Shown here piece by piece: positions 2,342 to 25,867 of a DNA stretch of 33,883 bases. Below the pieces are notes generated by a model that searched no databases, was not told where the DNA came from, and was given only the letters and a program-made list of their open reading frames with translations. Made by a program: the position numbers and the translations under genes. Position 1 is the first letter of the stretch; the number at the start of each line of letters is the position of its first letter. The stretch is from a virus. Where the stretch lies: IMG/VR virus record IMGVR_UViG_3300005664_000028, positions 1 to 33,883 of that record. The stretch is one strand, 5' to 3'.

Positions 2342-3046
2342 TCAGGCTGTGAGAGTCTTCAAACTACTGTGCAATCTAAGCAGGGCAGTCGAATGAATCT
2401 TTGACACCTTTACCTCCGTTAAACCTAACATCTTCGCAATGATATGAAGATCGTGCCCCATATAGTAGTGAAGAGATATAATAGTAACAGTTTCTTCAGG
2501 TAGAGTTTCAATAAAATCTGACGCTAGATCAAGAACTTCGCGCTCAAAACGAGGCCCTTCTGGTGCCTGTGTTCGTAAAGAGTGTGACGCTTCAGAAGCA
2601 GCAGCCAACATATCCGGCGACATAGTGTGGTGCCCATTGTCAGCCACAGTGAGGACACGGCGTACCTGTTTCAGGGAAAGCCCAGAACGCTCAGCCATCT
2701 CCTCCTCAGTAAGCTCCTCTGCCTCCGAGATAGCCTTTAGCATCTTGGCACGAGCGCGAGTGGTACGAGTTGCCCAATCCAAAGACCGTAGGTGTTCAAC
2801 AAGCTCACCGTAAATCCTGTGCCGCGCGTACACAGAGAAGTAACTCAAGTCGTTGGGGTCATAGTCATTGCGCGCACAGTGAGGAAGCCATAAGTTAGCA
2901 GCCAACACTAGACCTAAATAAGCCTGACCCTTAAGATCGTCAAGAGAAACATTAGAACCCTGAGTCTTACGCCACATCGTGTACGCGAGAGACTCTGCAA
3001 TATCTAGGCGATCAGCGATAGCTTCTTCAAGATACGCAGGCAGCAC
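2342..3046 (-). CDS. RNA polymerase sigma factor, sigma-70 family, FliA/WhiG-like
   Basis: This 234-aa protein has all the parts of a group 3 sigma factor. Region 2 (about residues 37-97) ends in YARHRIYGELVEHLRSLDW, closely resembling the YAxxRIRGAILDELRxxDW signature of FliA and WhiG. Region 3 (about 110-132) contains EEMAERSGLSLKQVRRVL, a helix-turn-helix. Region 4 (about 175-230) contains LPEETVTIISLHYYMGHDL followed by IAKMLGLTEVKVSKIHSTAL, the -35-binding helix-turn-helix. It should redirect host RNA polymerase to phage promoters, probably the GCCGATA sites upstream of late genes (inference). The start is GTG 3046, bounded by an upstream in-frame TGA. No ribosome site precedes it, and a promoter-like -10 lies 6 nt upstream, so the mRNA may be leaderless. 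Confidence 0.88.
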   Translation of the reverse strand: MLPAYLEEAIADRLDIAESLAYTMWRKTQGSNVSLDDLKGQAYLGLVLAANLWLPHCARNDYDPNDLSYFSVYARHRIYGELVEHLRSLDWATRTTRARAKMLKAISEAEELTEEEMAERSGLSLKQVRRVLTVADNGHHTMSPDMLAAASEASHSLRTQAPEGPRFEREVLDLASDFIETLPEETVTIISLHYYMGHDLHIIAKMLGLTEVKVSKIHSTALLRLHSSLKTLTA

Positions 3047-3087: not shown

Positions 3088-4736
3088 CTGGCAATAAGAT
3101 TCAGCAATTCTAATCCAGAAAGTTGACGGAACAACTCGTTCGTCGTACCCCACACAGAATCAAGTAATGCCTGCTCACGTTCAAGAACAGCAAGATAATT
3201 CTCTTCCTGAGTATCCCGTGTCAAGAGGTTATGAACATAAACAGTCTTGTGATGACTACCATCTCGACTAATTCTACCTGCTAACTGCGTCATACGAGCC
3301 GGATTGAGAATCATATCCATGTTCACAAGGTGACGAGCACACTGCAAGTTCAATGACTGTTCGATAGCGGACGTGCCAATAAGAACTCGGCACCGAGGGT
3401 CATCCCAGAACCTGTCTTGAGAAGCCTTACGTGCCGCCTTATCTGGCTGCTCTCCCCAAATAGTTTCATACCCAATGTGTGCTGCATTTAGCCTATCTTG
3501 AATAGCACGAATAGAGTTTTTCCACTGAGCAAAGACTACAACTTTTTCAGTGGCAAACTCCCCACCATCCTCAAGACGCTCCATCAACCAATCAAGTTTG
3601 ACAGCAGTGCGAGGCCCGTCAGTTTCTCCAATAGAAACAAGACCAGTACAGATCTGAGCACCGTAAATAAGCTGAGCCATAGCCTCAGCGTGCTTGACCT
3701 GAACACCTGTCTCGCGAACAATCTTAAGAACACCTTGACGTAGCTCTTCATACTTAGCCCGCTGTGCTGGATAGAGGTCTAAGTACACATCGTTTGGAGA
3801 AATGGCAGGCATACTTACGTCATCAATATCAGACGGCGTACGACGAAGAACCATCGGAGCAATAAGACCCTTGAACTCCTGAATATTTTGGTATCCGACG
3901 ATACGCTTAGCCTTAGCCCCCGGCCCATGATACGAAGCATGAAAAACATTTTCTGTTCGCACGTATCGCTGAATGAATCGAAACTCAGAACCAAAAAGTT
4001 CCCGCCCGCCAATAGATTCCAGAACACCGTACATCTCAGGTAACCGTTTCTGCAAAGGCGTGGCAGACATGATCACCATACGAGGAGAACGATTTGCCAA
4101 ACGACGAATAGCGAACGCTGACTTGTTCTTCCTATTACGTAGCGTGTCTACGTCATCGGTAATGATGGCAGCAAACTGAAAGTTATCAAGGATCTCATCG
4201 TCTTTAAGTAGCATCTCTGGTCCGATGATGAGAACTTCCCACGAGTAACAGTACTTGTTCATACGTTCACGTTTAGTACCTGAAGCAACTTCGATTCGCA
4301 ACGACGGCATGACACGATGCAACTCATCACGCCACTGCAAAATAGCAGGAGCACGACACACAATAAGAATGCGCTTCTTTCCTCGTAGCTCGCCAGACTC
4401 CTTCATCATGGCGATCAGCAGCGCACAATTAACTGTCTTGCCGGTACCTGTCCCGTCTGCTAGAAGCGCACGCTTACGAAGGTACAACCACGTCGAGCCA
4501 ACTGTCTGGTGATTGCGAGGAAGTACTCCACAACGACGACACCCTGGCTTAGGAATCCCCGTACGAATTGTCCCATCAAAATCTTTCCACTGATGGTGGG
4601 CAAGACACGGCTTGTCATTCCACGTCTCTAGCGTAGGGAGTTGAACATGTTTTGCTATCTTAACTTGATCTGCAACCTTTAATCTATGTTCGTCAGACGC
4701 TAATACCTTAGAAAGTTTTTCTAGTTCTGGTGTCAC
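3084..4736 (-). CDS. SNF2/superfamily 2 helicase-like ATPase
   Basis: The 550-aa product carries the two-domain SF2 ATPase core. Motif I is LLADGTGTGKT (91-101), motif III is MSATPLQ (223-229), and motif VI is QLAGRISRDGS near residue 480. Motif II reads ITDDVD (192-197) where most relatives have DEAH or DEAD, so Asp replaces the usual catalytic Glu. An N-terminal C-x3-H ... C-x2-C set (C44, H48, C66, C69) could bind zinc. SNF2-type proteins translocate on double-stranded DNA and remodel protein-DNA complexes; in phages of this type they lie among replication genes. It overlaps the upstream 130-aa gene by 4 nt, so translation is probably coupled. Confidence 0.85.
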   Translation of the reverse strand: MTPELEKLSKVLASDEHRLKVADQVKIAKHVQLPTLETWNDKPCLAHHQWKDFDGTIRTGIPKPGCRRCGVLPRNHQTVGSTWLYLRKRALLADGTGTGKTVNCALLIAMMKESGELRGKKRILIVCRAPAILQWRDELHRVMPSLRIEVASGTKRERMNKYCYSWEVLIIGPEMLLKDDEILDNFQFAAIITDDVDTLRNRKNKSAFAIRRLANRSPRMVIMSATPLQKRLPEMYGVLESIGGRELFGSEFRFIQRYVRTENVFHASYHGPGAKAKRIVGYQNIQEFKGLIAPMVLRRTPSDIDDVSMPAISPNDVYLDLYPAQRAKYEELRQGVLKIVRETGVQVKHAEAMAQLIYGAQICTGLVSIGETDGPRTAVKLDWLMERLEDGGEFATEKVVVFAQWKNSIRAIQDRLNAAHIGYETIWGEQPDKAARKASQDRFWDDPRCRVLIGTSAIEQSLNLQCARHLVNMDMILNPARMTQLAGRISRDGSHHKTVYVHNLLTRDTQEENYLAVLEREQALLDSVWGTTNELFRQLSGLELLNLIAS

Positions 4737-5125
4737 CGACTTGCCCTTCTTCTTTGCTCACGTAGCTGACTCACCACCGATGTTATCGAACAGGCTGGTC
4801 CGCCCTGTGGTTTTTCAACAGAGTCTTCAATGAATTCTACGACCTTCAATTGTTTGTACTGATCTTCAGAGAACGCGCACTTACCAGTCCCGCACGGAGA
4901 CAACACCTTACACGAAAAAGCAGGAGAAGACGAGCACTTCTCCCGAGCAACTCGCTCTGCTTCCCGTAACTCGGCACGGATCTTGTAGTTGTCACGCTTG
5001 TTCTGAATGTTAACAGCCTGGTGCAGCATAGCAACAACATAAGAACTGTCTTCTTTGAAAGCACGCTTTGCTTGCGAAACAATCTGTGTCAATTCGTAAG
5101 GCTCAGGAAGCTGAGGCAACGTCAC
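4733..5125 (-). CDS. Unknown 130-aa protein with four cysteines
   Basis: I do not recognise a family. The N-terminal part (about 1-65) predicts as long charged helices (QAKRAFKEDSSYVVAMLHQA, REAERVAREKC). It is followed by a cysteine-bearing stretch, CSSSPAFSCKVLSPCGTGKC, whose four cysteines could form a metal site or disulfides, and a C-terminal helix ending in RRRASR. The start GTG 5125 overlaps the stop of the upstream gene as GTGA, and the 3' end overlaps the SNF2-like gene by 4 nt, so three genes are probably translated together. A role alongside the SNF2-like ATPase is inference from position only. Confidence 0.6.
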   Translation of the reverse strand: MTLPQLPEPYELTQIVSQAKRAFKEDSSYVVAMLHQAVNIQNKRDNYKIRAELREAERVAREKCSSSPAFSCKVLSPCGTGKCAFSEDQYKQLKVVEFIEDSVEKPQGGPACSITSVVSQLREQRRRASR

Positions 5126-5409
5126 TCTTCCCCATCGTCAATAGTCTCATCAATGTCTAAAATATCAAACGAATCTCGAAGGCACGCGGACGTGTACTCA
5201 AGAAGACCAAGACTTCTCCACACACCGTTATGAAAATCTCTTAGGTGAGTAACGTATGTATCACCGTCATCACTCGCTACCTCAACAGCAATAAGAAAGT
5301 CTGTGATGACTCCTTGAGCAGAAGGGCTACCATTCTCACGAAGCTGTAAGATCTCCTTGAGTTTTATTTTCGTCTGTCTAATGAGATCCTCAGCAGCTTC
5401 GTTATCCAC
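5122..5409 (-). CDS. Unknown 95-aa acidic protein
   Basis: The product has an N-terminal helix (AAEDLIRQTKIKLKEILQLR), a central strand-rich part (GVITDFLIAVEVASDDGDTY) and an acidic C-terminus ending DIDETIDDGEE. No family is recognised. GTG 5409 is preceded by GAGGAG with a 5-nt spacer, and the 3' end overlaps the next gene in a GTGA. A promoter candidate lies about 40 nt upstream, making this the likely first gene of the SNF2-containing unit. Confidence 0.6.
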   Translation of the reverse strand: MDNEAAEDLIRQTKIKLKEILQLRENGSPSAQGVITDFLIAVEVASDDGDTYVTHLRDFHNGVWRSLGLLEYTSACLRDSFDILDIDETIDDGEE

Positions 5410-5447
5410 ACTAGCTCCTCACAGCAGGCAATAACCAACAACCACTA

Positions 5448-5476
5448 ACGATAGCATACAAACTATTCTTCTACAA
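5448..5476 (-). promoter_or_regulatory. Candidate host-type extended -10 promoter
   Basis: The minus strand has TTGTAG (5476-5471), exactly 17 nt, then TATCGT (5453-5448) with an extended TGC just ahead. The string TATGCTATCGT resembles TATGATATAGT upstream of the sigma gene and TATGCTATAGT upstream of the capsid gene. Most of it lies in the 53-nt gap before the 95-aa gene. Confidence 0.4.
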
Positions 5477-5792
5477 GATCTTCTTCTAAATGAGTGAACT
5501 CTTTTAATTCAAGACAAAAAGTAAGTAGCTCATCCTTAGTCAGGACAGGAGCATCAGGATCACGCTCAAAGACTTCGGCAGGAGCAGTGAGCACTTGAAC
5601 TCCTACCTTACGCAACGCATCAAAAACTTCACGACGAAGAAGAACTCGAAGACTGTAGGTTTCACACTGAGTGCAAGTAAAAGAGTAGAAAGGGAAATCT
5701 CCAACAGCAGGAACAATGATGCGGACAAAATCACTATTTAGTTTGATGTCGTCATCACACACATAACAAGAAACAATAACTTGCGCGCTCAT
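5463..5792 (-). CDS. Zinc-ribbon-like protein of 109 aa
   Basis: Two CxxC knuckles (C9/C12 in SCYVC and C40/C43 in CTQC) about 28 residues apart form a likely zinc ribbon. They are followed by a helical, acidic C-terminal half ending EEDLVEE. Function is unknown; zinc ribbons of this size in phages often bind nucleic acid or act as adaptors. I chose ATG 5792 over longer frames because GGGAGG lies 4 nt upstream and the longer version would read through the C-terminal repeats of the tail tube paralogue gene in another frame. It follows that gene after 28 nt and marks the change from the tail module to the regulatory module. Confidence 0.7.
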   Translation of the reverse strand: MSAQVIVSCYVCDDDIKLNSDFVRIIVPAVGDFPFYSFTCTQCETYSLRVLLRREVFDALRKVGVQVLTAPAEVFERDPDAPVLTKDELLTFCLELKEFTHLEEDLVEE

Positions 5793-5820
5793 CGTACCTC
5801 CCTTAAACAACGACACTACA

Positions 5821-6534
5821 TCACGGCGTTGGGTACAACGTGGTTGATGGATACAACGTGGTTGATGGGTAAGTATTAGACGGAGGAGTCTCTCCCCCGC
5901 CCGGATCAGGAGGTGTGATGGGAGGAGTGTAGCCACTGCTTTCCGGCGTGTACTCTGCTGTACCCGCACCAGTGCGTGTAATGAGTCGGCCAAAGGCTCG
6001 ATTGGCAAGAGGGTACCCAAGCTCATTAACATCAGACAGTACCGCCTTTGCCTTATAACTGATAGACATACCCTCTTTATATTGTGCAGGACTAAGAGAA
6101 TACGGACTCAGCTTAACCTTAAAAAATACGAATTCAAAATTGTGAAAGTTCTCATTACTATCCTTTGCTTGAACCTTAACAAGCAAAGGAGTAGGAGAAG
6201 GATTCAAATAGTCAGGAGACCACAGATCCATAGAAAGAAAAGAGTTGTCTGGATAAATGCCCAAATTCACAAACTCAGGAGCAAACTTAGAAACCAAAGG
6301 AAGAGAAATGAAACCAGACTCAATTTCTAAATCAATACAGCTAATAGAATTCCATGTGCTCACAACAACAGAGTTACTAAGCTCATCGACTGTCTCTACG
6401 TTAGCGGAGATACTTCCAGATCGTACACCGTAGATGTCCCCATCAATTGTTCCAGCACGCGTTTCACCATCAAGAATAGCGGCGTGAGAGATAGAGAAAC
6501 CCTCAACAAAGATTGCAGGCGTGTAGATAAGCAC
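5821..6534 (-). CDS. Second tail tube protein paralogue with Pro/Thr-rich tail
   Basis: Residues about 10-195 align with the tail tube protein encoded at 17141-17698. Shared segments include EGFSISHAAIL, GDIYGV, VxSTW, LNxxxxPxxxxVxAKDxN, and RAxGRL near the end. The paralogue then adds about 40 residues rich in Pro, Thr, Gly and Tyr, ending in a six-residue repeat (YPSTTL twice). Identity is scattered, so the duplication looks old or the copy was acquired. It is the last gene of the tail module, directly after the fibre gene, and starts at GTG 6534 with AGGAG 10 nt upstream. It may form a special ring at the tail tip or a decorated tube subunit (inference). The main tube gene has its own promoter candidate; this one does not. 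Confidence 0.8.
   Translation of the reverse strand: MLIYTPAIFVEGFSISHAAILDGETRAGTIDGDIYGVRSGSISANVETVDELSNSVVVSTWNSISCIDLEIESGFISLPLVSKFAPEFVNLGIYPDNSFLSMDLWSPDYLNPSPTPLLVKVQAKDSNENFHNFEFVFFKVKLSPYSLSPAQYKEGMSISYKAKAVLSDVNELGYPLANRAFGRLITRTGAGTAEYTPESSGYTPPITPPDPGGGETPPSNTYPSTTLYPSTTLYPTP
5834..5868 (-). repeat. Short tandem repeat, period 18 bp, in tube paralogue C-terminus
   Basis: The 17-base string TACAACGTGGTTGATGG (plus strand) occurs at 5834-5850 and 5852-5868. The period of 18 bases keeps the frame and encodes the repeated hexapeptide YPSTTL. Confidence 0.85.
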
Positions 6535-6547
6535 AAGATCTCATCTC

Positions 6548-8251
6548 CTAACTGATACCCGAAGACAAAGACCAACCATTCAGATCTCGGAATCGGACAG
6601 TTTGCGTACCATACACAAGTACGCCAGCATAAATGTTTAGCTCTTCAAATTCTGCAATGATGTTCTCTTCGTTAGTACGATAGACAGCAACACCATCAAC
6701 AAAAGCAGTAGCCATAGCACTAGAAATTTCTAGTCTCATGGTGTGCCAACCGTTACTCAGAGCAGTAATAGCCTTGGCAGTAGTCTCCTGTGTCGTGCCT
6801 GCCCAGAACGTCACCTTGTCGTCGCCGCTAACTCTCAGAGAGACACCACCAGTGCCAGCCGCGAAGCCGGCTGATGTATTAACAGCAACGCCAACATACT
6901 CGCTAGCCCCATCAAGAGAAGCTTGCACTTCAAAGTCAACTTCGACAGCATACCCAGCGAAGCTAGCAGAGAAAGGAGTGTTGTGACGAGCAGTGCAAAG
7001 AGTAGAAGCGCCAGCGCCTACACAGTTCACCTGACCTGAAACAACAGTCCATGTCCCGTTCTGCGTAGTGAGGTTAGTGGTAGCAGTAAGACCATCACTA
7101 ACGTCTGCTACCCACACAGGCCAATAAGAGTATGAACGATTCAAACCGCTCAACGTACTCTTTGTCACGCGCATGATGTAGTTAAGAGCCATTGACGGCT
7201 GAACAATCCCAAACGGGAGAGACGTTCCCCCCATTCCTCCGGTGTTCCCAGTGAAGACAGGAGTCGTGTACCAGTGCGCGTGCGCTCCCGCTGCGGTACC
7301 GACTGCTGTTCCTCCTGTCTTCGTACGCGCTACGTTTTCAGTTCCACCTGAAAGGTTAGGAGCATTAATGTCTGCTTCGACGTAGTGGTAGTGCAACCCT
7401 TGAACATCGGTCGTTCCAGCAGGGTGCTGATGAGACATGGAATGCGTATGCTCTACCATGTTGGCAGGTTCCAGCGCACGAGTCCCACTACCAAACTTCA
7501 CACCAATAGAGCTAGCACCGATAGTGCTAGAGGAATAGTAACCAACGATAGTACGATCTCGAAGGTCAGGAATATTAAAATGTGTGCCGTCAGCACTGCC
7601 AAAAGTAGTACCGATAACAGCAAACAAATCAGGATAAGAGACTCGAAGAAGAGAAGCTCCGTTACAAATAGCCCAACCATCAGGAGCGGTGCTGCCAGCG
7701 TAAGCAACAATAGTACCCACAGGGGTATCAACACCAGCAGTGATACTAACGTTCAACTCACTGTTAAAGTCAATGTCTTCCCAGGAGATTGTTGAAGCCC
7801 CTGCCTTAAGATACTTTCCAGAGGAACCTTTAGTAAGCTCTGTGTACGTACCAGCACCAGTGCCGACAGCAAGAGAGCCAAGCTGAGTAAAAACTGCCTT
7901 TGGAAGATACGTACCACCAGCAGTTTGAAGACTATCAATATCGTCTTGAATAGCTGCAACGTCAGCAGCAGCAGCAAACTTCAATGTCGGACGAACCAAC
8001 ATACGAGAACCTGTTCCCGTATCTAGCCACAGAGGGTCTGTCTCGTTATCGGGTCCGTAAAACTGCACAAGTCCTTGATCGTTAGAAAGAACTTCAGTGA
8101 CAGTCTCACCAAGAATGTTGAGCAGATCAGTGACCTGAGTACCGCTAGTGCGGGAGTCCCACACCTCAACAGGAACGCTAGGTCGCGGGTTTCCCGTCGC
8201 CACATCAATGACGTAATCACCGGGAGTAGACGCGTACAAAGAGCGGGCCAT
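6548..8251 (-). CDS. Tail fibre with collar domain and C-terminal lectin-like domain
   Basis: The 567-aa protein begins with a small strand-rich domain (1-90), then a heptad-like segment ADVAAIQDDIDSLQ (96-109) suited to trimerisation. The phage tail collar domain follows (about 177-235) with PVGTIVAYAG, PDGWAICNG and FNIPDLRDR. A His-rich stretch (HTHSMSHQHP) lies in the receptor-binding head typical of collar fibres. The last 170 residues predict as an all-beta concanavalin A/laminin G-like jelly roll (WHTMRLEISSAMATAFVDG, FRDLNGWSL). It likely binds the host surface. ATG 8251 has GGAGG at a 7-nt spacer. A GCCGATAG promoter candidate lies about 40 nt upstream. Confidence 0.85.
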   Translation of the reverse strand: MARSLYASTPGDYVIDVATGNPRPSVPVEVWDSRTSGTQVTDLLNILGETVTEVLSNDQGLVQFYGPDNETDPLWLDTGTGSRMLVRPTLKFAAAADVAAIQDDIDSLQTAGGTYLPKAVFTQLGSLAVGTGAGTYTELTKGSSGKYLKAGASTISWEDIDFNSELNVSITAGVDTPVGTIVAYAGSTAPDGWAICNGASLLRVSYPDLFAVIGTTFGSADGTHFNIPDLRDRTIVGYYSSSTIGASSIGVKFGSGTRALEPANMVEHTHSMSHQHPAGTTDVQGLHYHYVEADINAPNLSGGTENVARTKTGGTAVGTAAGAHAHWYTTPVFTGNTGGMGGTSLPFGIVQPSMALNYIMRVTKSTLSGLNRSYSYWPVWVADVSDGLTATTNLTTQNGTWTVVSGQVNCVGAGASTLCTARHNTPFSASFAGYAVEVDFEVQASLDGASEYVGVAVNTSAGFAAGTGGVSLRVSGDDKVTFWAGTTQETTAKAITALSNGWHTMRLEISSAMATAFVDGVAVYRTNEENIIAEFEELNIYAGVLVYGTQTVRFRDLNGWSLSSGIS

Positions 8252-8291
8252 CAGGCAGCCTCCAAAAGACAGAAATTCTTCTCTATAAGAG

Positions 8292-8319
8292 CTATCGGCA
8301 GAATCGTCTACCTAGTAAC
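8292..8319 (-). promoter_or_regulatory. Candidate phage-sigma promoter P2 (GTTAC-N15-GCCGATAG)
   Basis: GCCGATAG lies at 8299-8292 on the minus strand with GTTAC 15 nt upstream (8319-8315), the same -35-like string and spacing as P1. It sits between the Gp37-like gene and the fibre gene, with the -35 overlapping the last codons of the former. Confidence 0.55.
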
Positions 8320-9657
8320 GACAACCAACTCTCGCAAGAGTTGAATGTTTGTTTGTAAAGTAAGCTGCGTAGAATAATCTCCCGCCTCGTCTACTGAAGC
8401 AGAGATTGCAACTACTCTTATCTTCTCCACTGACACAGGATCACTAGGTCGGCCCTCAGAAGCAAAGCCTACCCAATCTCCTACTTGATAGTCAAGAAAA
8501 GCACGATTAATAGTGATCGGATCTCCACCGCTTTGCTCAATCTCTATAAAAGGAGGAGCAGAGATTGTCCATGAACTAAGTTCTTCTTTATACTTCTCAA
8601 GCTCAGCAGAAGTAAGAGCGGCAGGGGACTGCGTAACGTCAGGCCCAGTACCGTCACCGGGAATTGTGACAAAACGTTCTCTGCGTCCCCACGAAGTACG
8701 AGACTCTACATCATGAATGCCTTTAAGGACACTGCCACCAACAGGCTGATACAAACTAGTATCAAACAACCCAAACACACTGTTACCTATGTCAGCACGA
8801 TCACGAGTCCTTGACTTCTGAAAAAGCACTGGGTTATAGAACACAACACTCTCAGAAAGATCTTCACCTAGGTCTTCTGCAACGTGCAAAATTCCACCGG
8901 GAGCCATGTAGAAAGAACTGTTCTGAATTTTGGCGCACTCCGAAAGAAGGTCTAAAAGATTGACACCGTTAGCCTGACACGTACCATCTCGATCTTGAGT
9001 AGGCGTCCACGCTACCCCGGCTGAGTCTGTAGTGACACTAAAAGAAAAGGCGAGTGTAGGAAGAAAGCTGCGCGCGAGATTGGTAACAGAAGTGTCTGCC
9101 TCATCCTTGAGAAACCTCTGCTTAGCACGCAAGTACATCTGGTACCAGTGGCGCATCATGTTCGTCTTCTCGTACGGATCTAACAGAGAAGTAGCTAATT
9201 CTCCGTACTTGTACAACATTCCACTACCTTCAGTAAAAGTAGCAGCAGTTATCTCAGCGTCGTTGATAATAGATTGCCCAGGCAACGCAGCAATATCCTT
9301 ATTGACTATAGGAGGAAGCACAATAGCGTGACGCAAGCAATCGAGAACGCCTTTACCGCTAACCGTCACTTGACGATCAAGACTCTCGTCTACATAAGAA
9401 ATCTCAGAGTTAGTAGGCAGCCAGTCAAAAACAAGCACCTCATCTAGGTAAAACTCCCAGAGGTTATCGCTCTCAAAAATCCTATCAAAGACATCGCCGT
9501 AGTCTAAGAAGTCCGAGTCCAGATCAAATGTGCATGACGCGGCACCGGGACCGTCAAGCTCAGACGACAACATCAAACTACGAAAAGGTACAACAGTGAT
9601 AAGTTCGCCAGTGACAGAACGAACCTTAACAACCCATGAGCCGGATGTATTAGACAT
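8308..9657 (-). CDS. Minor tail protein, ReqiPepy6 Gp37-like / Tal-like
   Basis: The 449-aa product is placed between the distal tail protein and the fibre, the usual position of tail-associated (Tal-like) proteins. Its N-terminal half has the strand pattern and phrases of the Siphovirus Gp37-like family (ITVVPFRSLMLSSELDGPGA, LWEFYLDEVLVFDW, VTVSGKGVLDCL). Its C-terminal half ends with the DYQVGDWVGFASEG ... QLTLQTNIQLLREL pattern of hub proteins. It likely forms the tail-tip hub to which fibres attach. I use ATG 9657, which overlaps the end of the upstream gene by 8 nt. A longer frame to 9813 would read through the upstream gene and gives an unlikely leucine-rich N-terminus. Confidence 0.75.
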   Translation of the reverse strand: MSNTSGSWVVKVRSVTGELITVVPFRSLMLSSELDGPGAASCTFDLDSDFLDYGDVFDRIFESDNLWEFYLDEVLVFDWLPTNSEISYVDESLDRQVTVSGKGVLDCLRHAIVLPPIVNKDIAALPGQSIINDAEITAATFTEGSGMLYKYGELATSLLDPYEKTNMMRHWYQMYLRAKQRFLKDEADTSVTNLARSFLPTLAFSFSVTTDSAGVAWTPTQDRDGTCQANGVNLLDLLSECAKIQNSSFYMAPGGILHVAEDLGEDLSESVVFYNPVLFQKSRTRDRADIGNSVFGLFDTSLYQPVGGSVLKGIHDVESRTSWGRRERFVTIPGDGTGPDVTQSPAALTSAELEKYKEELSSWTISAPPFIEIEQSGGDPITINRAFLDYQVGDWVGFASEGRPSDPVSVEKIRVVAISASVDEAGDYSTQLTLQTNIQLLRELVVVTR

Positions 9658-10981
9658 AAGGCTCACGATAATTAAGGAACATCTGACCGCTAAAGTCAGG
9701 AGACACTTCAACCCCAACATACTCAACAGTAACTGTATTTGCACCTTGTTGAAGAGATAGCCACAACGGATTACCGTACGAAGAAACTTTGCCAGTAACA
9801 GGACTATCAGCACGATGGATATTCAACGTTCCTACAACCCCAATAGTTGTAGGAAAAGCTGCGCTACGGTCTGATTTCACAGTGATGGACTCACTGTCAA
9901 TCGTTGTCACAACAGAGTGAACGTAGTACACAGTGCCAGCAGAACCAGTAGAGAAATTAGGCCCAGAAGAAAGAACACTAGACAGTCCAGAAGTACTAAT
10001 GTCATGAAAGTAGAGAGGGGTTCCAACAGTAAAGTCAGTCATGTCTGTGCCAGAAGGCAGAGATATGGAATTAGATCCAATATCGGTAGTACCAGCAGCC
10101 AGACTTTCACCAGAACGAAGAGCAACAGACTGATCAAAAAAGAATCTTGTACGCTCGCCAGACACAAGAGCAGTATCTTCGTACTGGAACCAATGCGCGT
10201 TTGCAGACAGTGGAGAGGCTGTCGTGACTCTGAAATCACTAGGATTAGCACCAAAAATACTCAGTGAGCAGCCATAGCCAGTAGTCACAGAACTACCAGC
10301 ATTGAATACAGGAGAAGCCAACCCCTCAAACAGTTCAACAGAACGAACAGGTCCATAGAAAAAAGGGTCACTGAGAACAAGATCAACAGAGAACGTCGCG
10401 CGATTACGACCAGTCATCTCTGGTTCCATCGCTCCACCAATCTGTGCCCGAGCAGTAGCCTCAAGAATCTTCTGTCCGGCCACCGCCCCCGACTCTCCGG
10501 CATCAACAACATCGCCAGTCTCAGAATCACGATAAACAACCTCACCGTTAGCGTCGCGTTCAAGAGTTCGCCAACGTCGTGTCAGTTCTACCTGACGGTC
10601 AGGAGTCCAGAACAGTCGCTGCAATGCTTCCCAGTTCTGATTAAACTGAAATTCAGAGTCCCCTGTTTCCAAGTTCGTATCAGGATCAAGACCGTTCACG
10701 TACATCTCAAGAACAATTGTGCGAGACGCTGCAATCTTAGGACGGAAAGCCTGTCCGGCACGGTACGCATACACAGGATCAGACCCTCGAAGGCCAGGAA
10801 ATCCACGAGGAGACCCTCCGAAATTAGATACGGCCCACGCGTACCTGTTCAGAGACACGCCATCAACAGACCACCACTCGTCAGCACTCGTCGTACGCCA
10901 TGACTCGTCAGAAGTTGTCGAAGCGCGACGGTACTGCGACAGTGTATGCACTGACGGATCGTATTGCCCTGTATCAAACAC
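9650..10981 (-). CDS. Distal tail protein (Dit-like)
   Basis: The 443-aa product follows the tape measure gene, where Dit proteins are encoded. Its N-terminal domain (about 1-200) contains WWSVDGVSLNRYAWAVSNFG, then TIVLEMYVNG and a WEALQRLFW segment, the usual phrases of Dit N-domains that form the ring at the end of the tail tube. After SDPFFYGP the C-terminal half is strand-rich with Ser/Thr/Gly-rich loops and could carry a carbohydrate-binding or galectin-like insertion. GTG 10981 is preceded by GGGAG at about 9 nt and lies 3 nt after the tape measure stop. Confidence 0.75.
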   Translation of the reverse strand: MFDTGQYDPSVHTLSQYRRASTTSDESWRTTSADEWWSVDGVSLNRYAWAVSNFGGSPRGFPGLRGSDPVYAYRAGQAFRPKIAASRTIVLEMYVNGLDPDTNLETGDSEFQFNQNWEALQRLFWTPDRQVELTRRWRTLERDANGEVVYRDSETGDVVDAGESGAVAGQKILEATARAQIGGAMEPEMTGRNRATFSVDLVLSDPFFYGPVRSVELFEGLASPVFNAGSSVTTGYGCSLSIFGANPSDFRVTTASPLSANAHWFQYEDTALVSGERTRFFFDQSVALRSGESLAAGTTDIGSNSISLPSGTDMTDFTVGTPLYFHDISTSGLSSVLSSGPNFSTGSAGTVYYVHSVVTTIDSESITVKSDRSAAFPTTIGVVGTLNIHRADSPVTGKVSSYGNPLWLSLQQGANTVTVEYVGVEVSPDFSGQMFLNYREPYV

Positions 10982-10984
10982 GAC

Positions 10985-13900
10985 TTAGTACTCCCGACTT
11001 GTCATCTTTTTGAGTTGCCGCTGGATTGAGTCCGTGGAGCGTTCCCGGTAGGGGTTATGGACGTTGATGTTTTGGTTTTCGATAGTGAAGCGTCGAGAAC
11101 TGTCATGGGTGACGTTCGTGGATTTGACTCGTGGTGCGTCTGGCACGGAAAGTTTGGGCGTGATCGGCAGGGGATTGAACGAGAATTGAGGACTCACGAG
11201 CTTCTGAGTTTGGGCATGAGTCATCACCCTGCCCCGTTCTGCCGGTAGGACGATCTCTGGGCCGTATTCGCCCACAAGGTAGGGCTGCATACCTTCGATC
11301 AGACCGCCCATTGCTCTCTTGCCCTTGGGCTTAGATTTCTTTTTGGCCTTGCCCTTGGGAGTGGCTAGCGTGCCGCCTTCTGCCGTAGGAATCATGGCGT
11401 TGATTTCACGAAGACTCACGGCGAGATCCTGAAGCGAGAAACCAAAGTCAGTCAAGGAATCACGAGCGGCAATGACTCCATCGGAGCCTTCGATACCTGC
11501 TGCTGTGAGCTTGGCGTAGTCAGCTTTGTCTTTCTCGATCTGCTTGAGGCTCTCGTCATAACGAAGCTGGGCTGCTTCGAGTTCCACCCGTGCTGCTTCC
11601 CGGTCTACCGCTGTTGAGTTGGAGTCAGCAAGCACCCGTTTAGCGTTCTGCTTGGCGCTGTTGAGTTCGCTTGATGCTTGGCGCTGAGTGAATCCTGAGT
11701 TGTGCTGAGCAACGGTCTTGCCCATGTCTTCAATTGCTACGCGTGCTTGCTCTTGGGCTTCTACGAGTGCCTGCTGAGCGCGGATCTGATCTCGAATAGA
11801 ACGGCGCTGATTCTCTAGCTCTCGATCTCGACGGCGAAGAGCTTCCTCACGATTCGTGCGGGCTTCGTTGCCAGCTTCTCTCGCATCGTAGGCACGCTGC
11901 TGGGCGGGCTTCATCTTCGAGTACTTGGCGCGTGCCTTGGCTTCGTTGAGGGCTATGGCGTATCCGGCTTCAAAAGCAAGATCTGACGGAGACTTAGCCG
12001 CTCGACCGCCTTTCTCGAATCGCTGTGCGAGTCCGACGATGCCGCCCGTGGCGTATCGAGTACGGCGCTTCCTGAAGCCTGAGTCACCCTTGCTGTTCGT
12101 CTGATTGAGTTTCTCTAGGTTGTCGTATCCGATAGCTTTCGCCGCTGACTTTCGGATCACAAACTCTCCGGGCATGAGAAGAGCTTGAACGGAATCCGTG
12201 TCGCCTTGGCCGGGAACGATACCGCCGTTCGCTCCGGCAACCTTCGTCGCTGACGTTTCTCCTCCTGATGCTCGACCGCCGCCGCCTGAGGAAAGCTGAG
12301 CCTTGAGGCTAATGGCGTTGAGTAGCTGGGATTCAATGGTGCTGATTGCTGATCCATCGACGCTGACAAGAGTTGTCTGAGACAGAATCTCTTTGTCCTT
12401 CTGAAGCTTCGAGATGATCTCGTCTGCCTCTTCGAGACTCTTGGGCTTGACGTTCGGATCTACTTCGTTGGCTTCGAGATCATGAAGCTCTTTTTCTGCC
12501 TGAGCTCTCTTTGCCGTGAGTTCGTCAATCTTCAGCGTTGCTTCTGGCGTTGCTTTCTTCCTGCTGAGCCTGTTGATCTGCGCGTCAATATCGGCAATCG
12601 TGTTGCGTAGCTTGCCTTCGTGGATCTGGATTTCAATAGGCGTGTTTGACGCGCTCTTCATCACGGAGATCAGCTTTTGGCCTTCGGTGGCGTTCTGTGC
12701 CCAAGCAGGTAGGGAGGCATATAGCTGAGCGGTCATCTGCCCGTACTTGGCCTTGGCAACGTCTGCGCTCACGCCAGACGAGAGAAGCTGTTGATAGAAC
12801 TTTTCAATGCCTTGGGCTTGGGTAGTGACTGCTTGGCCGAAAGCTCCTAAGACCGGGATGCCTTGTGCGTTCGTGGAGTAGAAAGCCTGCTGCTCGTACT
12901 TACCCTTGGCTACCGCCGTGTTGAACTTGGCTTGACTTGCCGAGAGACGAGCTTGAGCCTGCTCGACTACTGCGGCGTTAGCGGTTCCCTTTGCCAACGT
13001 GTCAAAGAACTTCTGGGCACCGACCCGTGCCTGAGTGAACGGATCTGTTTTGAACTGTTCAAGGTTGGTGCCGTACTGGGCCAGGAAACTGGTTAGCTGC
13101 GGCATCTTCTCCGCCGCCTGCTCCGTGTTGAGTCCTAGTGCCTTCACGTTATCGACAAACGTGGCGAAGCCTTCAGAATCAAGGGAGCTACCGAAAGAGG
13201 TAAGCACGGAGTCGAGCCGCTTTAGACCTTCATCCCCGACTCGTAGCGCGTCCTGCAATTCCGCCTTGAACTTCTGGGCGCGGTCGTAGGCCGCGATGTC
13301 GTCTGCGGTCGTTCCTGGTTCAAAGCGGGTGGTTGTCGTCGGTGCTGCTTGATTACTCCCGCTAGGAACTGTGGATTGAGTCGGTGGCTTCATCTTGCTG
13401 ACCACCTGGAGATCCTTGGCGTTTTGCTTGAGTTCGTCTGACCACTGGGAAGATGACTTCGCGTTGATCTCGTTTGCCGTGTACCAGTCGTTCAGCTTGA
13501 CCGCGCCCACGGTGATCGCAGCGGCCACGGCTGCGATGCCTGCTGCGATTGCGCCTACTGTTCCCGCCGCTGTGCCTGCCAAGGCCGGGATGCCAGCGAG
13601 GAACTTGGAGAACTTGCCGCCCTTGCCTGCTGCTAGTCCGCCAGCGTCTCCGACTGTCTCGACGGTCTTCAGCAAGCCAACGGCTACCGCCGCCTTCTTC
13701 GCGGCTGCCCCCAACCTAACCAGACGCGTAACAAACTTATCGTAGATACCAATAACAATAATACCAGCACCAACAAGACCAGCAACAGTTCCAGCTAGCT
13801 TAACGAACTGTCCAATAACAGGAATACTAGCAAGTGTATTAAGTATAGTAGCAAGAACATCAAATACAGTGATAAGAGAGGTAACAAAAGTTAGAACACC

Positions 13901-16099
13901 AGAGTCAATAAGCTTAGCAAAAATGCTAGCAATAGAAGCAATGGCACGAATAAACTTATCCATGTTCTCTGGCTGCCCAAGCACCCGCATCAACTCAAAA
14001 ACAGCAGGAAGAAGCTCAGTCCTGATCACGCCAATACTAGTAGTCAGCGCACCAAGATCCACCATACTAGCAAGCCCACGGAAAATATCTCCGAACAACT
14101 TACCAACCTCAGAGAGAACAGGCTTAAGGTCATCAAAGAACTTATTAAGCTTCCCTCCCTCCTGCGAAGCGCCCTTAACAGTGACAGCCCAGCCCTTTGC
14201 AACTGCGTCGAAACGTTGCATGAGCCAATCGGTCGTATCGCCCGCTGCTTTGAAGACAGAAGAGATGATAGAACCAAAGCTCTTAATAATACTGATGAAC
14301 TGTGTCAGTCTCGTACCAACAGTGTCGAAAGAGTTCTCATTGAGAGAGGCAGACCAGTCACGGAAGTCGTCAGCCAGCCCAGCAATGGTCTGACCAACAA
14401 ACTTTGTCAACGGACGGGCAGCGTCAGCGATCAGGCGGAACGCGTCCATAACAGACAGAAGTGCGTCGCCTAGAGAACCGATGACCTTGACGTTCGACTT
14501 ACCCAGACGAGCGAAGCTATCCTGCCACGGTCCAGAGGCCATCATCTCAACGCCCTTAGCTGCTACCTTACCGACAGCACCAGCAGCAGAGGAGAGGATA
14601 GGCTTCAGAGAACTCAAGATAGTCTTGAACTTACCTACCTGTGGAACGATAGGCCCGAAGAAAGATTTCTGAGCGGCCTTCTGAACCTTCTGCCACGCAG
14701 GGTAGAGATCAGTGAGCGCACCAACGACCTTACGAGCAGCGGGAGCCATCTGTGCGAGAGCTTCGGCGTACGTCTTAGGTACAGGAGACCCATTCTCCTT
14801 GCCGAACAGAGAGAACGCTTTACCCACACCCCTGAATGCAAGGGCTACACCGCCAGCAGCCGCTGCCACAGCGAGAATACCACCAGGAACAGTAGCAATC
14901 ACCCCACCGAGTTGTGCCAAAGCATTAGCGAAAACGACAGCGGCACCGCCAGCAGCAGCCAACAAGGACACAATAGACTGCAAAGAGAACGCAACAGTAG
15001 CAATACCCAGACCAAGGAAAGCAGCCTTGACTTGGTAGAAACTTCCACCAACTGCCTTCATGACCCCGGTCAGTTTAGAATACGTACGTTGTACTCTCGT
15101 GCCCTTCTTACTCGCTTCGTCTGCTTGACGATTACTCTCCGCCATAGCAGCCGCATTAGAAGCTAGCTCGTGCGCGTGAGAATCAAAGTTCTTCGCATTA
15201 GAACCAAACTCCAAGCTAAGATTGTGCATGGAATCTCGGTACGCGTTTACCTGCGTAGGTGACAACTTCCCACGAACAGCGTCCAAAGTATCCATGAAAG
15301 TCTGAAGACCACTCTCGGCCTTTTTAACCTCGGTAATAAGGTCACCAGAGCCGCCGTCAATCCTACCAAGAGCACTGGAATCTTTTCCTGAGATCTGCTT
15401 ATTAAAAACGTCAGCTAGACGCTTGTATCCAACAAGCTGCTCATCAAGATTATCCTTTATGTTCTTGTGCGCGCGTGTCTCACGTACTGCGTTCTCCTTG
15501 TAAGCAGCATCCCACGCTTTATTTATACGGCTAATCTGTTGAAGAGTTTCCTTACCCAGCTTCTCTTGTTTCGATAAACTCTCTTTGTAAGCGCGCGACT
15601 CACGCACTTCCTTCTCTTTATAAGCAGCGTTCCACGCCTTACTGATACGGTTAATCTGTCGAAAAGTCTCTCCGCCTAAACTCTTCTGACGAGACAGATC
15701 GTCTCTGTAAGAACGTGTCTGACGCGCTGTGTTCTCTTTATCAGCAGCAATCTTAGCCCTGTTAAGACGCTGAATCCACTGAAAGGTCTCCTTGCCCAGT
15801 CTCTTTTGGGCCGCTAGAGCTTCTTTGTCGGACCTCTTTTTGGCAGCCGCTGCCTTAGCTTCAGCAGAACTAACCGCAGAAGCTGTCCTCTTTGCTACCT
15901 TAGAATCTTTCTGGCGAGCAGCGGTGGTTTCTTTTACTGCGTCTGTCTGATCTTCTTGTGCGTCAGTAGCTTTCTTTGTACCCTTAACAGTTTTATCATT
16001 AAGAGCGTCAAGACGCTTCTCAACATTCTTCAGAGACTGAAGAAACTTTCCGAAGTTGGCAACGGCGGTATACTTGACGCGGTAATCTCTTTCCGCCAT
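10985..16099 (-). CDS. Tail tape measure protein
   Basis: At 1704 aa this is by far the largest gene and sets tail length; the rule of about 0.15 nm per residue predicts a tail near 250 nm. The N-terminal 220 residues are charged helices with three exact-length 40-residue repeats. Hydrophobic membrane-active stretches follow at roughly 360-440 (ATVAFSLQSIVSLLAAAGGA) and near 760-870. A Lys/Glu/Gln coiled coil precedes a C-terminus with typical tape measure phrases (LMPGEFVIRKSAAKAIG, YLVGEYGPEIVLPAERG). ATG 16099 is preferred over TTG 16105 because AAGGAGGGG lies 7 nt upstream of the ATG. The codon composition changes sharply near 13720. Confidence 0.93.
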   Translation of the reverse strand: MAERDYRVKYTAVANFGKFLQSLKNVEKRLDALNDKTVKGTKKATDAQEDQTDAVKETTAARQKDSKVAKRTASAVSSAEAKAAAAKKRSDKEALAAQKRLGKETFQWIQRLNRAKIAADKENTARQTRSYRDDLSRQKSLGGETFRQINRISKAWNAAYKEKEVRESRAYKESLSKQEKLGKETLQQISRINKAWDAAYKENAVRETRAHKNIKDNLDEQLVGYKRLADVFNKQISGKDSSALGRIDGGSGDLITEVKKAESGLQTFMDTLDAVRGKLSPTQVNAYRDSMHNLSLEFGSNAKNFDSHAHELASNAAAMAESNRQADEASKKGTRVQRTYSKLTGVMKAVGGSFYQVKAAFLGLGIATVAFSLQSIVSLLAAAGGAAVVFANALAQLGGVIATVPGGILAVAAAAGGVALAFRGVGKAFSLFGKENGSPVPKTYAEALAQMAPAARKVVGALTDLYPAWQKVQKAAQKSFFGPIVPQVGKFKTILSSLKPILSSAAGAVGKVAAKGVEMMASGPWQDSFARLGKSNVKVIGSLGDALLSVMDAFRLIADAARPLTKFVGQTIAGLADDFRDWSASLNENSFDTVGTRLTQFISIIKSFGSIISSVFKAAGDTTDWLMQRFDAVAKGWAVTVKGASQEGGKLNKFFDDLKPVLSEVGKLFGDIFRGLASMVDLGALTTSIGVIRTELLPAVFELMRVLGQPENMDKFIRAIASIASIFAKLIDSGVLTFVTSLITVFDVLATILNTLASIPVIGQFVKLAGTVAGLVGAGIIVIGIYDKFVTRLVRLGAAAKKAAVAVGLLKTVETVGDAGGLAAGKGGKFSKFLAGIPALAGTAAGTVGAIAAGIAAVAAAITVGAVKLNDWYTANEINAKSSSQWSDELKQNAKDLQVVSKMKPPTQSTVPSGSNQAAPTTTTRFEPGTTADDIAAYDRAQKFKAELQDALRVGDEGLKRLDSVLTSFGSSLDSEGFATFVDNVKALGLNTEQAAEKMPQLTSFLAQYGTNLEQFKTDPFTQARVGAQKFFDTLAKGTANAAVVEQAQARLSASQAKFNTAVAKGKYEQQAFYSTNAQGIPVLGAFGQAVTTQAQGIEKFYQQLLSSGVSADVAKAKYGQMTAQLYASLPAWAQNATEGQKLISVMKSASNTPIEIQIHEGKLRNTIADIDAQINRLSRKKATPEATLKIDELTAKRAQAEKELHDLEANEVDPNVKPKSLEEADEIISKLQKDKEILSQTTLVSVDGSAISTIESQLLNAISLKAQLSSGGGGRASGGETSATKVAGANGGIVPGQGDTDSVQALLMPGEFVIRKSAAKAIGYDNLEKLNQTNSKGDSGFRKRRTRYATGGIVGLAQRFEKGGRAAKSPSDLAFEAGYAIALNEAKARAKYSKMKPAQQRAYDAREAGNEARTNREEALRRRDRELENQRRSIRDQIRAQQALVEAQEQARVAIEDMGKTVAQHNSGFTQRQASSELNSAKQNAKRVLADSNSTAVDREAARVELEAAQLRYDESLKQIEKDKADYAKLTAAGIEGSDGVIAARDSLTDFGFSLQDLAVSLREINAMIPTAEGGTLATPKGKAKKKSKPKGKRAMGGLIEGMQPYLVGEYGPEIVLPAERGRVMTHAQTQKLVSPQFSFNPLPITPKLSVPDAPRVKSTNVTHDSSRRFTIENQNINVHNPYRERSTDSIQRQLKKMTSREY
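15446..15805 (-). repeat. Three tandem 40-residue (120-bp) repeats in the tape measure gene
   Basis: Units beginning KRLGKETFQWIQRLNRA, KSLGGETFRQINRISKA and EKLGKETLQQISRINKA follow each other at exactly 40-residue intervals. Each contains LGxETxxxIxRxxKA, an AxKE segment and a terminal RxxR-Y/H-K/R element. The DNA copies are clearly diverged, so the duplication is not recent. Confidence 0.85.
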
Positions 16100-16112
16100 T
16101 GCCAACCCCTCC

Positions 16113-16523
16113 TTACCGTGGACGAGTTATACCCGGCGCAAGGCCAGACATAAGCCGCTCATAAGAGCCTGTCTGCGGCTCCTTACTTTTCGTACTCGCT
16201 TTCTCTTCTTGTGGATCAAGTGATACTGCAAGAGCTTGTTTCACAAAGTCCTCGCCCGCGCCACTAGCTGCCGCAATAAAAGTGCTCAGTGTTTGCGTCT
16301 GCCAGGAAACGAGTGCTCTATTCTTTCGCTCCTCCATGTACCGTCGTAAAGTGATTGCCGTTGTGATCTGACGAAGCCGTTTAAGAGTGAGGTCAAGAAT
16401 TGTTTTATCATCCCAACCATACTCAAAACTAACTAAGTCAAATGCACGAGACAGTCCTCCTACTAAGCCTTCTGGGTCGATGCCTTGGAGGTCTTTGACG
16501 AGGCGCTCGGCTTGTCTTGCCCC
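16113..16523 (-). CDS. Tail assembly chaperone, second part made by -1 frameshift
   Basis: A frame in the -1 register overlaps the end of the first chaperone gene and runs to 16113. Its translation holds the expected sequence of the downstream chaperone domain: LSRAFDLVSFEYGWDD, then a helical segment with LRQITTAITLRRYMEER, followed by SWQTQTLSTFIAAA. It has no suitable start of its own near the overlap; the first ATG (16337) would remove the conserved part. The fused product from 17041 would be 309 aa. This matches the G/GT arrangement of lambda-like siphophages, where the ratio of short to long chaperone is set by frameshifting during assembly of tube and tape measure. The stop at 16113 lies within the ribosome site of the tape measure gene. 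Confidence 0.85.
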   Translation of the reverse strand, partial: GARQAERLVKDLQGIDPEGLVGGLSRAFDLVSFEYGWDDKTILDLTLKRLRQITTAITLRRYMEERKNRALVSWQTQTLSTFIAAASGAGEDFVKQALAVSLDPQEEKASTKSKEPQTGSYERLMSGLAPGITRPR

Positions 16524-17041
16524 GTCTTCAGAGCCAGTTCCAGCATCGACAGTAGGCGTTTTCCCAAGGCTGCCAAGTCCTTTGCTTCACGTCGGATAAT
16601 CAACTCGACAATCCCAAAGGTATCTTCCAGTTCAGGGTTAGCAAGTGCCTTATCAACGTCGTCCCACAAAGAGCGGTTGCGCTCAATTGCCTGCTTAGAC
16701 AGACTGTTACCCTCAGTCAGACCAACTGGCTTAACCATACTGACAAGGAAGTCAATGGTTTCCTGTTCAGCTTCAGGGATGGAGAAAACAACCATAGCCA
16801 AAAGACGACCAACGATCTCTTCGCCCTCTCCATCAAACAGGGAAGTAATACCATCTTCCATATAAGCAGGAGCACCGTGAGTAATGATACGGAAAAGGCG
16901 GAAGAACTGACGAGTCTTCAGATCTTCAATAGAAACAACCGTACCGTCAACCAGAGTGTAGGTTGCAGGAACGGGATCAAGAATATCTTCTTCTGACACC
17001 TTGATGTCAGTTTCAGTTACTTCGTCTTGCACGGCAGTCAT
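16463..17041 (-). CDS. Tail assembly chaperone, short form
   Basis: This 192-aa protein lies between the tail tube and tape measure genes, the standard place for the gpG-like chaperone. It starts with an acidic segment, then TYTLVDGTVVSIEDLKTRQF, and continues as helices (RLFRIITHGAPAYMEDG, IVGRLLAMVVFSIPEAEQE). The C-terminus is a basic, low-complexity tail (KPSASSKTSKASTQKA) that is bypassed in the frameshifted form. It is expected to bind the tape measure protein and recruit tube subunits. ATG 17041 is preceded by AAGGAG with a 5-nt spacer. It is the first gene after the tail tube hairpin. Confidence 0.85.
   Translation of the reverse strand: MTAVQDEVTETDIKVSEEDILDPVPATYTLVDGTVVSIEDLKTRQFFRLFRIITHGAPAYMEDGITSLFDGEGEEIVGRLLAMVVFSIPEAEQETIDFLVSMVKPVGLTEGNSLSKQAIERNRSLWDDVDKALANPELEDTFGIVELIIRREAKDLAALGKRLLSMLELALKTGQDKPSASSKTSKASTQKA
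16517..16523 (-). promoter_or_regulatory. Probable -1 frameshift slip site GGGGCAA
   Basis: In the short chaperone frame the codons are ACG GGG CAA GAC. A tRNA on GGG can re-pair with GGG one base back, giving GGG GCA AGA and entering the long frame. Both frames are open here and the short frame ends 54 nt further on. The site is my best candidate by eye; other positions in the overlap lack a homopolymer of four. Confidence 0.5.
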
Positions 17042-17093
17042 AGCTGCTCCTTATCTAAGAGATTCGATTTTTCATATTCAGTTATAAGTAGCC

Positions 17094-17132
17094 AGGTAGG
17101 AGGGAAACCCTTGGGATATTTCCCTCCTACCT
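17094..17132 (-). terminator. 14-bp hairpin after tail tube gene
   Basis: AGGTAGGAGGGAAA (17094-17107) and TTTCCCTCCTACCT (17119-17132) form a perfect 14-bp inverted repeat with an 11-nt loop. It lies 8 nt after the tail tube stop codon. There is no run of T on the minus strand beyond the stem, so it may be a U-tract-free terminator, a partial terminator or a 3' stabilising structure for the abundant tube mRNA. Confidence 0.65.
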
Positions 17133-17140
17133 AACTAGGA

Positions 17141-17698
17141 TTAAGATGGACGGCTAACCAAACGACCAATTGCACGGTCAGTCAGGCTAGCTCCGGTCTC
17201 GTCCACAGACGAGATGAGTGCGCGGCCTGAGTAGTTCAGCTTCAGACCATCCTTGTAGGACGGACCATCGAAGCTGAATGGCTGGAACTGCACCTTGTAC
17301 AGGATGAAGTCAAGGTTACGCGTCACACCGTTAGTGTCCTTAGCAGGAACACGAATACGCATGGGACGAGTTGGCTGGTTCAGGGACTCTTCAGTCCACA
17401 GCGGTACGCTGTAGTGGTCGTTAGGCGCTGAGCCAGACGACGTAACAGTGGTGCCGCTAAGCAGCGCAATGGTATCGAACGGGACATACCCGGCCTGGAT
17501 CGTGACGTTGGCGAAGTTGAACCAGAACCACGTCGAAAGCACAGTGTTGTCACCAGGGTTGTCAAAGCTGTCGGTATCAGCCTCAAGCGATCCTTCGTTC
17601 ACACCGTAAATATCACCGAAAGTTTCATCGGCACCAGTGGAACCATTAAGAATGGCCGCGTGGCTAATACTAAAGCCCTCAAAAGTTTTAGTAGACAT
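17141..17698 (-). CDS. Major tail tube protein
   Basis: The 185-aa protein is encoded between the head-tail joining genes and the tail assembly chaperones, which identifies the tube protein in siphophages. Its sequence is mostly strands, with FEGFSISHAAILNGSTGADE at the N-terminus and ALISSVDETGASL near the end, fitting the tube beta-sandwich fold. The codons favour C in third position compared with neighbouring genes, as in the capsid gene, consistent with high expression. ATG 17698 has AAAGGAG with an 8-nt spacer. A GCCGATAG promoter candidate lies upstream and a strong hairpin follows the stop, so it can be transcribed on its own. A diverged paralogue is encoded at 5821-6534. Confidence 0.9.
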   Translation of the reverse strand: MSTKTFEGFSISHAAILNGSTGADETFGDIYGVNEGSLEADTDSFDNPGDNTVLSTWFWFNFANVTIQAGYVPFDTIALLSGTTVTSSGSAPNDHYSVPLWTEESLNQPTRPMRIRVPAKDTNGVTRNLDFILYKVQFQPFSFDGPSYKDGLKLNYSGRALISSVDETGASLTDRAIGRLVSRPS

Positions 17699-17757
17699 GC
17701 TGTTGTCTCCTTTGAGACTAAGGAAATATGGATTAGCCTCTAGCGGCTCTACTTAAT

Positions 17758-17784
17758 CTATCGGCGCTTTCTCCTTTCTACTTA
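17758..17784 (-). promoter_or_regulatory. Candidate phage-sigma promoter P3 (TAAG-N15-GCCGATAG)
   Basis: GCCGATAG occupies 17765-17758 on the minus strand and TAAG lies 15 nt upstream (17784-17781), close to the FliA/WhiG pattern TAAA-N15-GCCGATAA. It is in the 79-nt gap ahead of the tail tube gene, giving a leader of about 50 nt. Confidence 0.6.
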
Positions 17785-18020: not shown

Positions 18021-18021
18021 A

Positions 18022-19158: not shown

Positions 19159-19185
19159 ACGGGGTCAGACCCTCCACTGCAATAC

Positions 19186-19317: not shown

Positions 19318-19325
19318 AACATCTC

Positions 19326-25824: not shown

Positions 25825-25867
25825 AATCACACACTATCAGAAAGTCAAACAAAAAGAAGTGGAACAC

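Follow-up and report, generated by a model that had tools for sequence, protein, structure and literature searches.

The viral DNA analyzed here (positions 1 to 33,883 of IMG/VR record IMGVR_UViG_3300005664_000028; this whole stretch of 33,883 nucleotides is called the window) encodes two paralogous tail tube proteins. One is the ordinary tube subunit. The other is a strongly diverged copy whose gene lies directly behind the tail fiber gene, and which ends in a flexible Pro/Thr-rich tail. We tentatively propose that this second copy serves as an accessory subunit with the tube fold, present in few copies at the tail tip or where the fiber attaches.

Two tail tube genes in the window

The features that bear on the two genes are collected in Table 1. 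The copy at 17141-17698 is the tube, as identified by its identity to a Microbacterium phage major tail protein and by the chaperone and tape measure genes that come after it, in the same order as in phage Magritte. The second gene lies about 11 kb away, with the genes for the tape measure protein (TMP) and the fiber in between. It directly follows the Collar-domain fiber gene, at the tip and fiber end of the tail module, so that the earlier note was right to place it beyond the fiber. Its neighbors on the other side, from 5463-5789 onwards, belong to the genome's non-structural part. Its in-frame codon score, 0.144, is typical of genes in the window, whereas scores are negative in the two remaining forward frames (-0.13) and in all three antisense frames (-0.05 to -0.26).

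Table 1. Coordinates of the tube genes, their parts and neighboring genes in the window
Feature	Position	Strand	Description and evidence
Second tail tube gene	5821-6534	-	GTG start, 237 aa
Shine-Dalgarno-like AGGAG	6545-6549	-	Overlaps the fiber stop codon; GTG 10 nt further on
Tube-fold domain of the second paralog (residues 1-187)	5974-6534	-	BLASTP, phrog_36442, AlphaFold2 and structure match
Residues 51-55 (ELSNS), in place of the conserved NTGDD loop	6370-6384	-	Alignment to canonical tubes
Flexible Pro/Thr-rich C-terminal tail (residues 188-237)	5824-5973	-	Composition and block-mean pLDDT
YPSTTLYPSTTLYPTP repeat	5824-5871	-	Two 18-nt DNA copies, 94% identical
Fiber gene with tail Collar domain	6548-8251	-	PF07484, E 1.8e-21; tail fiber PHROGs
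Main tail tube gene	17141-17698	-	185 aa; 62% identical to Microbacterium phage Magritte gp33, 'major tail protein'
Glycosyltransferase gene (GT1-type)	18022-19158	-	PF13692, E 2e-8

Several other genes of the window deserve mention. The glycosyltransferase gene stands two genes upstream of the main tube gene, with a homologue similarly placed in Magritte and Kitkat, and its product is a possible candidate for modifying tail proteins; the Thr-rich tail of the second copy, which the earlier note suggested as a glycosylation target, would be a purely hypothetical substrate. The interval from the capsid gene to the decoration-protein gene (23170-25830, minus strand) holds a sugar-nucleotide epimerase (PF01370), two methyltransferase-like genes and a 227-aa gene; together with the glycosyltransferase, this block could be a putative virion glycosylation set. 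Virion glycosylation is reportedly described for mycobacteriophages in work of Freeman and colleagues from 2023. The ORF at the high end of the window (31622-33850, minus strand), which we take to be the large terminase, contains an intein (PF14890, E 7.3e-21), part of which is HNH-like. At the replication end, 2342-3046 (minus strand) encodes a Sigma-70-like protein (PF04545, E 5e-11) with homologues in Magritte and in G001, the contig with the closest tube protein.

The second copy is a paralog of the tube protein with the tube fold

BLASTP aligns residues 11-187 of the second copy to the main tube protein without gaps, with 65 identities over 177 positions (37%, 131 bits), and the E-value of 4e-43 led us to reject chance similarity between the two. 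Judged by sequence, the 237-aa protein is a real paralog of the tube protein. The full-length pattern that the earlier note had pointed out (EGFSISHAAIL, GDIYGV, STW, AKD-N and RAxGRL) is present. Each of the two window tube proteins matches phrog_36442 and no other PHROG (E 3.5e-26 for the second copy and 3.4e-44 for the main one), with residues 10-185 of the second copy aligned to positions 7-192 of the 196 in the profile. PHROG annotates this family as 'unknown function'; it is the tube protein family of Magritte, Kitkat and KellEzio. In Pfam, neither protein matched any family.

An AlphaFold2 model of the second copy, built from 58 aligned relatives, has a mean pLDDT of 77.8 and a pTM of 0.71, and consists of a beta-sandwich and a helix up to about residue 190, followed by a disordered tail. 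Its best match in the PDB is the tail tube 8xkn_B (Z 13.2, rmsd 3.4, 167 residues aligned), followed by 8ygm_A, 9jgh_G, 9jgi_O, 8zdj_S and 8rk3_f at Z 12.0-13.0. The main tube protein (pLDDT 93.8) also finds 8xkn_B first, at Z 13.7 and rmsd 3.5 over 169 residues. Foldseek E-values of the second copy against the PDB are modest, the best being 6.9e-5; its best fold match in BFVD is the KellEzio tube homologue (E 8.7e-18). The structure prediction that the earlier note had called for thus returned the tail tube fold for the second copy, and no unrelated fold. A sequence search of the PDB with the tube family profile found no solved relative, its single row being a non-phage entry at E 0.75.

In the family tree the second copy sits on a branch of length 3.85 (median end branch 0.15), and its fork was drawn open. 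It has in common with P0002 and L001 a seven-residue gap before RAxGRL, but other single-copy groups also lack this segment and the gap was therefore not used as proof of kinship.

Conserved residues are lost in the second copy

We used 56 ordinary tubes as the canonical set, and took as conserved the 56 positions at which at least 90% of them agree. The second copy differs at 26 of these 56 positions, in both alignments used for the count. When each canonical tube was left out in turn, the largest deviation was 8 of 57 and the median row deviated at 1 of 56. The changed positions include N51, G53, D54 and D55 of the NTGDD loop, S91-S92-G93 and G149-P150. At the loop the canonical residues are found in 56 of 56 tubes (N51, G53 and D54) or 53 of 56 (D55), and all four are altered in the second copy. 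The 30 positions that are kept include E11, G12, F13, S14, A18, A19, L21, G74, W105, Y152, K153, G155, G182 and R183.

In the model of the main tube, the NTGDD loop (residues 49-52) connects the two longest strands. In lambda gpV, a D61A/D62A change in the b2-b3 loop stops tube growth at the ring interface (PMC8718954). HHalign gave no usable alignment between the tube family and gpV, and because the families cannot be aligned by profile, the comparison of the Asp residues is only an analogy. By this analogy, the loop residues would make ring-to-ring contacts, and their loss would mean that the second copy has given up ordinary stacking.

These losses bear on the main rival reading, in which the second copy is a minor subunit mixed into the regular tube, its C-terminal tail decorating the surface at intervals, as with SPP1 gp17.1* or with the additional major tail protein (MTP) that cluster DJ phages have. 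The tube fold of the second copy is full-length, and precedents exist, with gp17.1 and gp17.1* at a ratio of 3:1 in SPP1 (PMC8718954) and two MTPs in FortCran (PMC12859696). Against this reading stand the loss of nearly half of the near-invariant residues, with the NTGDD loop among them, the place of the gene beyond TMP and fiber (the three MTP genes of phage Camille are all upstream of TMP), a low GC3, and a tail that is disordered and without an Ig or FN3 domain. With these loops lost, the protein is less likely to be mixed at random into the regular tube, which would favor the other option of the earlier note, a special ring or tip part. We consider a mixed tube unlikely, though ahead of a role outside the virion or in assembly, which in turn ranks ahead of decay.

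The GC3 values are as follows. Capsid (0.577), main tube (0.589) and TMP (0.542) form the high group in the window; the second copy (0.388), the fiber (0.411) and the two genes before the fiber (0.417 and 0.381) are low. In Camille, the capsid (0.895) and the first MTP (0.889) stand against 0.628 and 0.594 for the other two MTPs, while Magritte and Kitkat have no such split. The split hints at a low copy number for the extra MTPs. TMP is a low-copy protein in siphophages generally, and its high GC3 of 0.542 fits ill with low GC3 as a sign of low copy number, which makes the proxy a weak one. The Camille locus (L216:10906-14404) encodes three paralogous major tail proteins whose C-terminal extensions differ. 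As only the first has a capsid-like high GC3, the pattern hints that this one is the main tube subunit and the other two are minor.

The C-terminal tail carries a repeat found in other tail-like proteins

The extension beyond GRLITR is about 50 residues long. The earlier note had counted about 40 residues with YPSTTL repeats: extension and repeat are there, but the extension is longer, and the repeat amounts to two full YPSTTL units and a YPTP, derived from the two near-identical DNA copies of Table 1. The 49 residues from 189 on include 12 Pro, 11 Thr and 5 Ser. Block-mean pLDDT is down to 58-44 from residue 191 on, so that the extension, unlike the one on SPP1 gp17.1*, does not look like a folded surface domain. 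In the canonical tubes compared, the domain is followed by 22 residues at most.

A tblastn search of phages with the C-terminal tail found no match, for which the low-complexity filter may be responsible. Our scan of viral contigs for DNA coding for YPSTTLYP identified 24 stretches. Two adjacent copies of the motif, some of them imperfect, occur in 12 of these (L193, L196, L198, L199, L204, L206, L208, L209, L210, L212, L214 and L215), and five of the 12 resemble one hub-type family. Of these five, the proteins of L196 and L206 were scanned and match PF24032 (YQBQ-like) with 28.1 and 24.9 bits, the cut-off being 27. Among the other tandem-motif proteins, that of L210 has a lectin domain and those of L209 and L215 have weak tail-protein matches; in L198 and L209 the motif is at the end of the protein. 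The remaining 12 stretches comprise four glycosyltransferase-like ORFs (of which L192 was tested by PHROGs) and otherwise short ORFs with a single copy. A hub repeat peptide and a hub-type protein, one of each, were also used as sequence queries of the PDB and gave no match. Given this spread among hub-type, lectin-domain and weakly tail-matching proteins, the YPSTTLYP repeat appears as a recurring piece of tail-like proteins, often terminal or as an insert. The tandem peptide is present in several phage proteins that are unrelated to one another, and may be a module that tails use generally for docking or as a linker.

A second, distal tube copy is rare

Profile scans of viral contigs found 131 and 144 relatives of the tube protein, of which the best 80 of each were listed. 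We searched 133 whole records, made up of the distinct records of the first list, 49 new ones from the second, 18 others (partly the same) and three phage genomes; one listed relative, L173 (2,061 bases), was left out. One tube gene was found in 129 of the 133 records, and since many of the records are fragments, the absence of a second copy from many of them is weak evidence. Among the records of at least 100 kb, 31 of 32 have one tube gene. Of annotated phages, seven records match the window tube proteins, each in one place.

The closest relative by tube protein, G001 (73% identity), has no second copy. Its gene order is tube, chaperone, a 74-aa gene and TMP, with a 130-aa gene and a helicase later. 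The second copy of the window is the sole distal copy of its kind found near its own lineage. As the sole query of viral contigs it found no relative and no close orthologue, a profile scan of genome contigs with alignment A1 had no match, and neither did a megablast search of phages with window positions 4700-20000.

Three contigs (G069, G070 and G071) hold a tandem pair of tube genes, with identical DNA in all three. The two genes (L107:2769-3985, also L108 and L109) encode proteins identical at 181 of 198 residues. From its sequence, this pair is a recent duplication caught early.

The contig G058 (139,587 bases) encodes an ordinary tube protein and, about 30 kb away, a second tube domain (L126:10001-11572, which is G058:C1 at about 69.0-70.6 kb, minus strand). 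This domain is the C-terminal part of a 524-aa protein; about 330 residues with D-T-G-rich repeats, ending in YPPLAEYPSLGNF, precede it, and a stretch reading YPPLAEYPS adjoins it. The N-terminal 337 residues have no match in phages, and the whole protein has none in Pfam. The second copies of G058 and the window align at 23% identity, less than either reaches with its best canonical tube (44% and 37%, respectively). On these identities, the two distal copies probably arose separately. The G058 copy keeps the two Asp of the loop, so the loop loss is not common to both, and a parallel loss was rejected (9 shared changed positions for 7.4 expected, p 0.26).

Rarity suits a further reading, in which the second copy derives from the tube but acts apart from the completed tail, for instance as a starter or cap in assembly or through an effect on the host or rival phages. 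Having one tube gene in nearly all records is what an accessory factor would give, a capping subunit might well lack the residues that are likely to serve stacking, and the gene adjoins the non-structural part of the genome. But the gene directly follows the fiber gene, tail-like proteins from other phages share the YPSTTLYP repeat of its tail, and neither PHROGs nor Pfam gave an enzyme or regulator domain in the second tube protein; we regard this reading as distinctly improbable. A decaying, functionless duplicate that is open by chance would account for the very long branch and the sole occurrence near this lineage, but is highly improbable given an intact frame of 237 codons without a gap over the aligned residues, the codon use of a working gene, a Shine-Dalgarno-like site, and 30 of 56 near-invariant residues kept, among them G74, W105, Y152, K153 and G155.

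A proposed role at the tail tip

We favor, at a confidence that stops just short of even, a low-copy accessory part of the tail tip or fiber attachment with the C-terminal tail as a flexible arm. Paralogy and fold, the place behind the fiber gene with spacing suited to translation, the loss of conserved residues, the low GC3, the presence of YPSTTLYP in tail-like proteins and the distal copy of G058 were counted for it. Duplication of the tail tube protein would have given rise to an accessory part of the virion, produced in few copies alongside the tip and fiber proteins. Without the loop that likely carries ring-to-ring contacts, it would not build the repeating tube and might instead sit at the end of a ring. 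The Pro/Thr-rich YPSTTLYP end would be a flexible, outward-reaching arm, either holding or helping to dock the fiber encoded just before it or touching the host surface.

More broadly, and more doubtfully, a spare tube subunit may have become a tail-tip anchor at least twice independently in this large family, whose isolates infect Arthrobacter and Microbacterium. The tube fold would serve as a socket, with stacking residues given up and a YPS-repeat arm or fiber-like part added at a terminus, and YPSTTLYP would be a docking or linker module shared by tip hub, fiber and tube-fold proteins of unrelated phages.

Tail tips are the parts of siphophages that vary most and evolve fast, and the tube fold is common to several of their core proteins. 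A duplicate still recognizable as a tube protein, with its gene among those of the tip, would show how tip proteins begin. Residues that a tube needs for stacking alone should be the ones lost from the second copy, which can thus be used to test which residues these are, and the YPSTTLYP repeat could help to pick out further tip proteins from genes of unknown function.

Comparison with known systems

Paralogous major tail proteins, one of them with a C-terminal extension, are already published. All 56 sequenced cluster DJ phages of Gordonia are reported to have two MTPs, and those of FortCran to be 43% identical, one with 51 extra C-terminal residues (PMC12859696). Damascus and the cluster EL phages of Microbacterium have two MTPs by their authors' account (PMC11080557). 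The three annotated MTPs of Camille (gp17, gp19 and gp20) are 42-48% identical over about 220-255 residues. The window resembles these phages in having paralogous tube proteins in one genome. In DJ and EL phages, however, the MTP genes are close together, whereas those of the window lie on either side of TMP, with the second behind the fiber gene. The window copy is also far more diverged from its own family and nearly a one-off. Neither Camille nor the DJ phages are among the seven phage records matched by either window tube protein.

SPP1 likewise has, in gp17.1*, another form of its tube protein that is longer at the C-terminus; it arises from a single gene by frameshift, which adds a folded FN3 domain (PMC8718954). 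The second copy of the window is instead a separate, diverged gene with its own start, and a frameshift origin was rejected on this ground. Its extension is disordered and Pro/Thr-rich, with no folded Ig or FN3 domain and no Pfam match. The idea in the earlier note that a separate gene could supply an extended minor tube form thus holds for the gene and the C-terminal extension, but not for an added surface domain with a fold of its own.

Within phrog_36442, the second copy has the full-length match and the tube fold but departs from the conserved core. The usual place of the family, upstream of the chaperone and tape measure genes, is that of the main copy and not of the second. The G058 copy is alike in being a diverged, distal tube domain beside a YPS-containing stretch, and differs in having its tube domain C-terminal, behind other residues. 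By description, a possible working model for the second copy is lambda gpM, which forms a hexameric ring below the last tube ring and binds the tube through a beta-sandwich domain (PMC10721106); we do not claim membership of that family. Our search of mostly open-access literature found no description of a tube paralog at the fiber end. What is new here is the place behind the fiber gene, the strong loss at conserved positions, the YPS-repeat end, and a second distal case in G058 that is probably independent.
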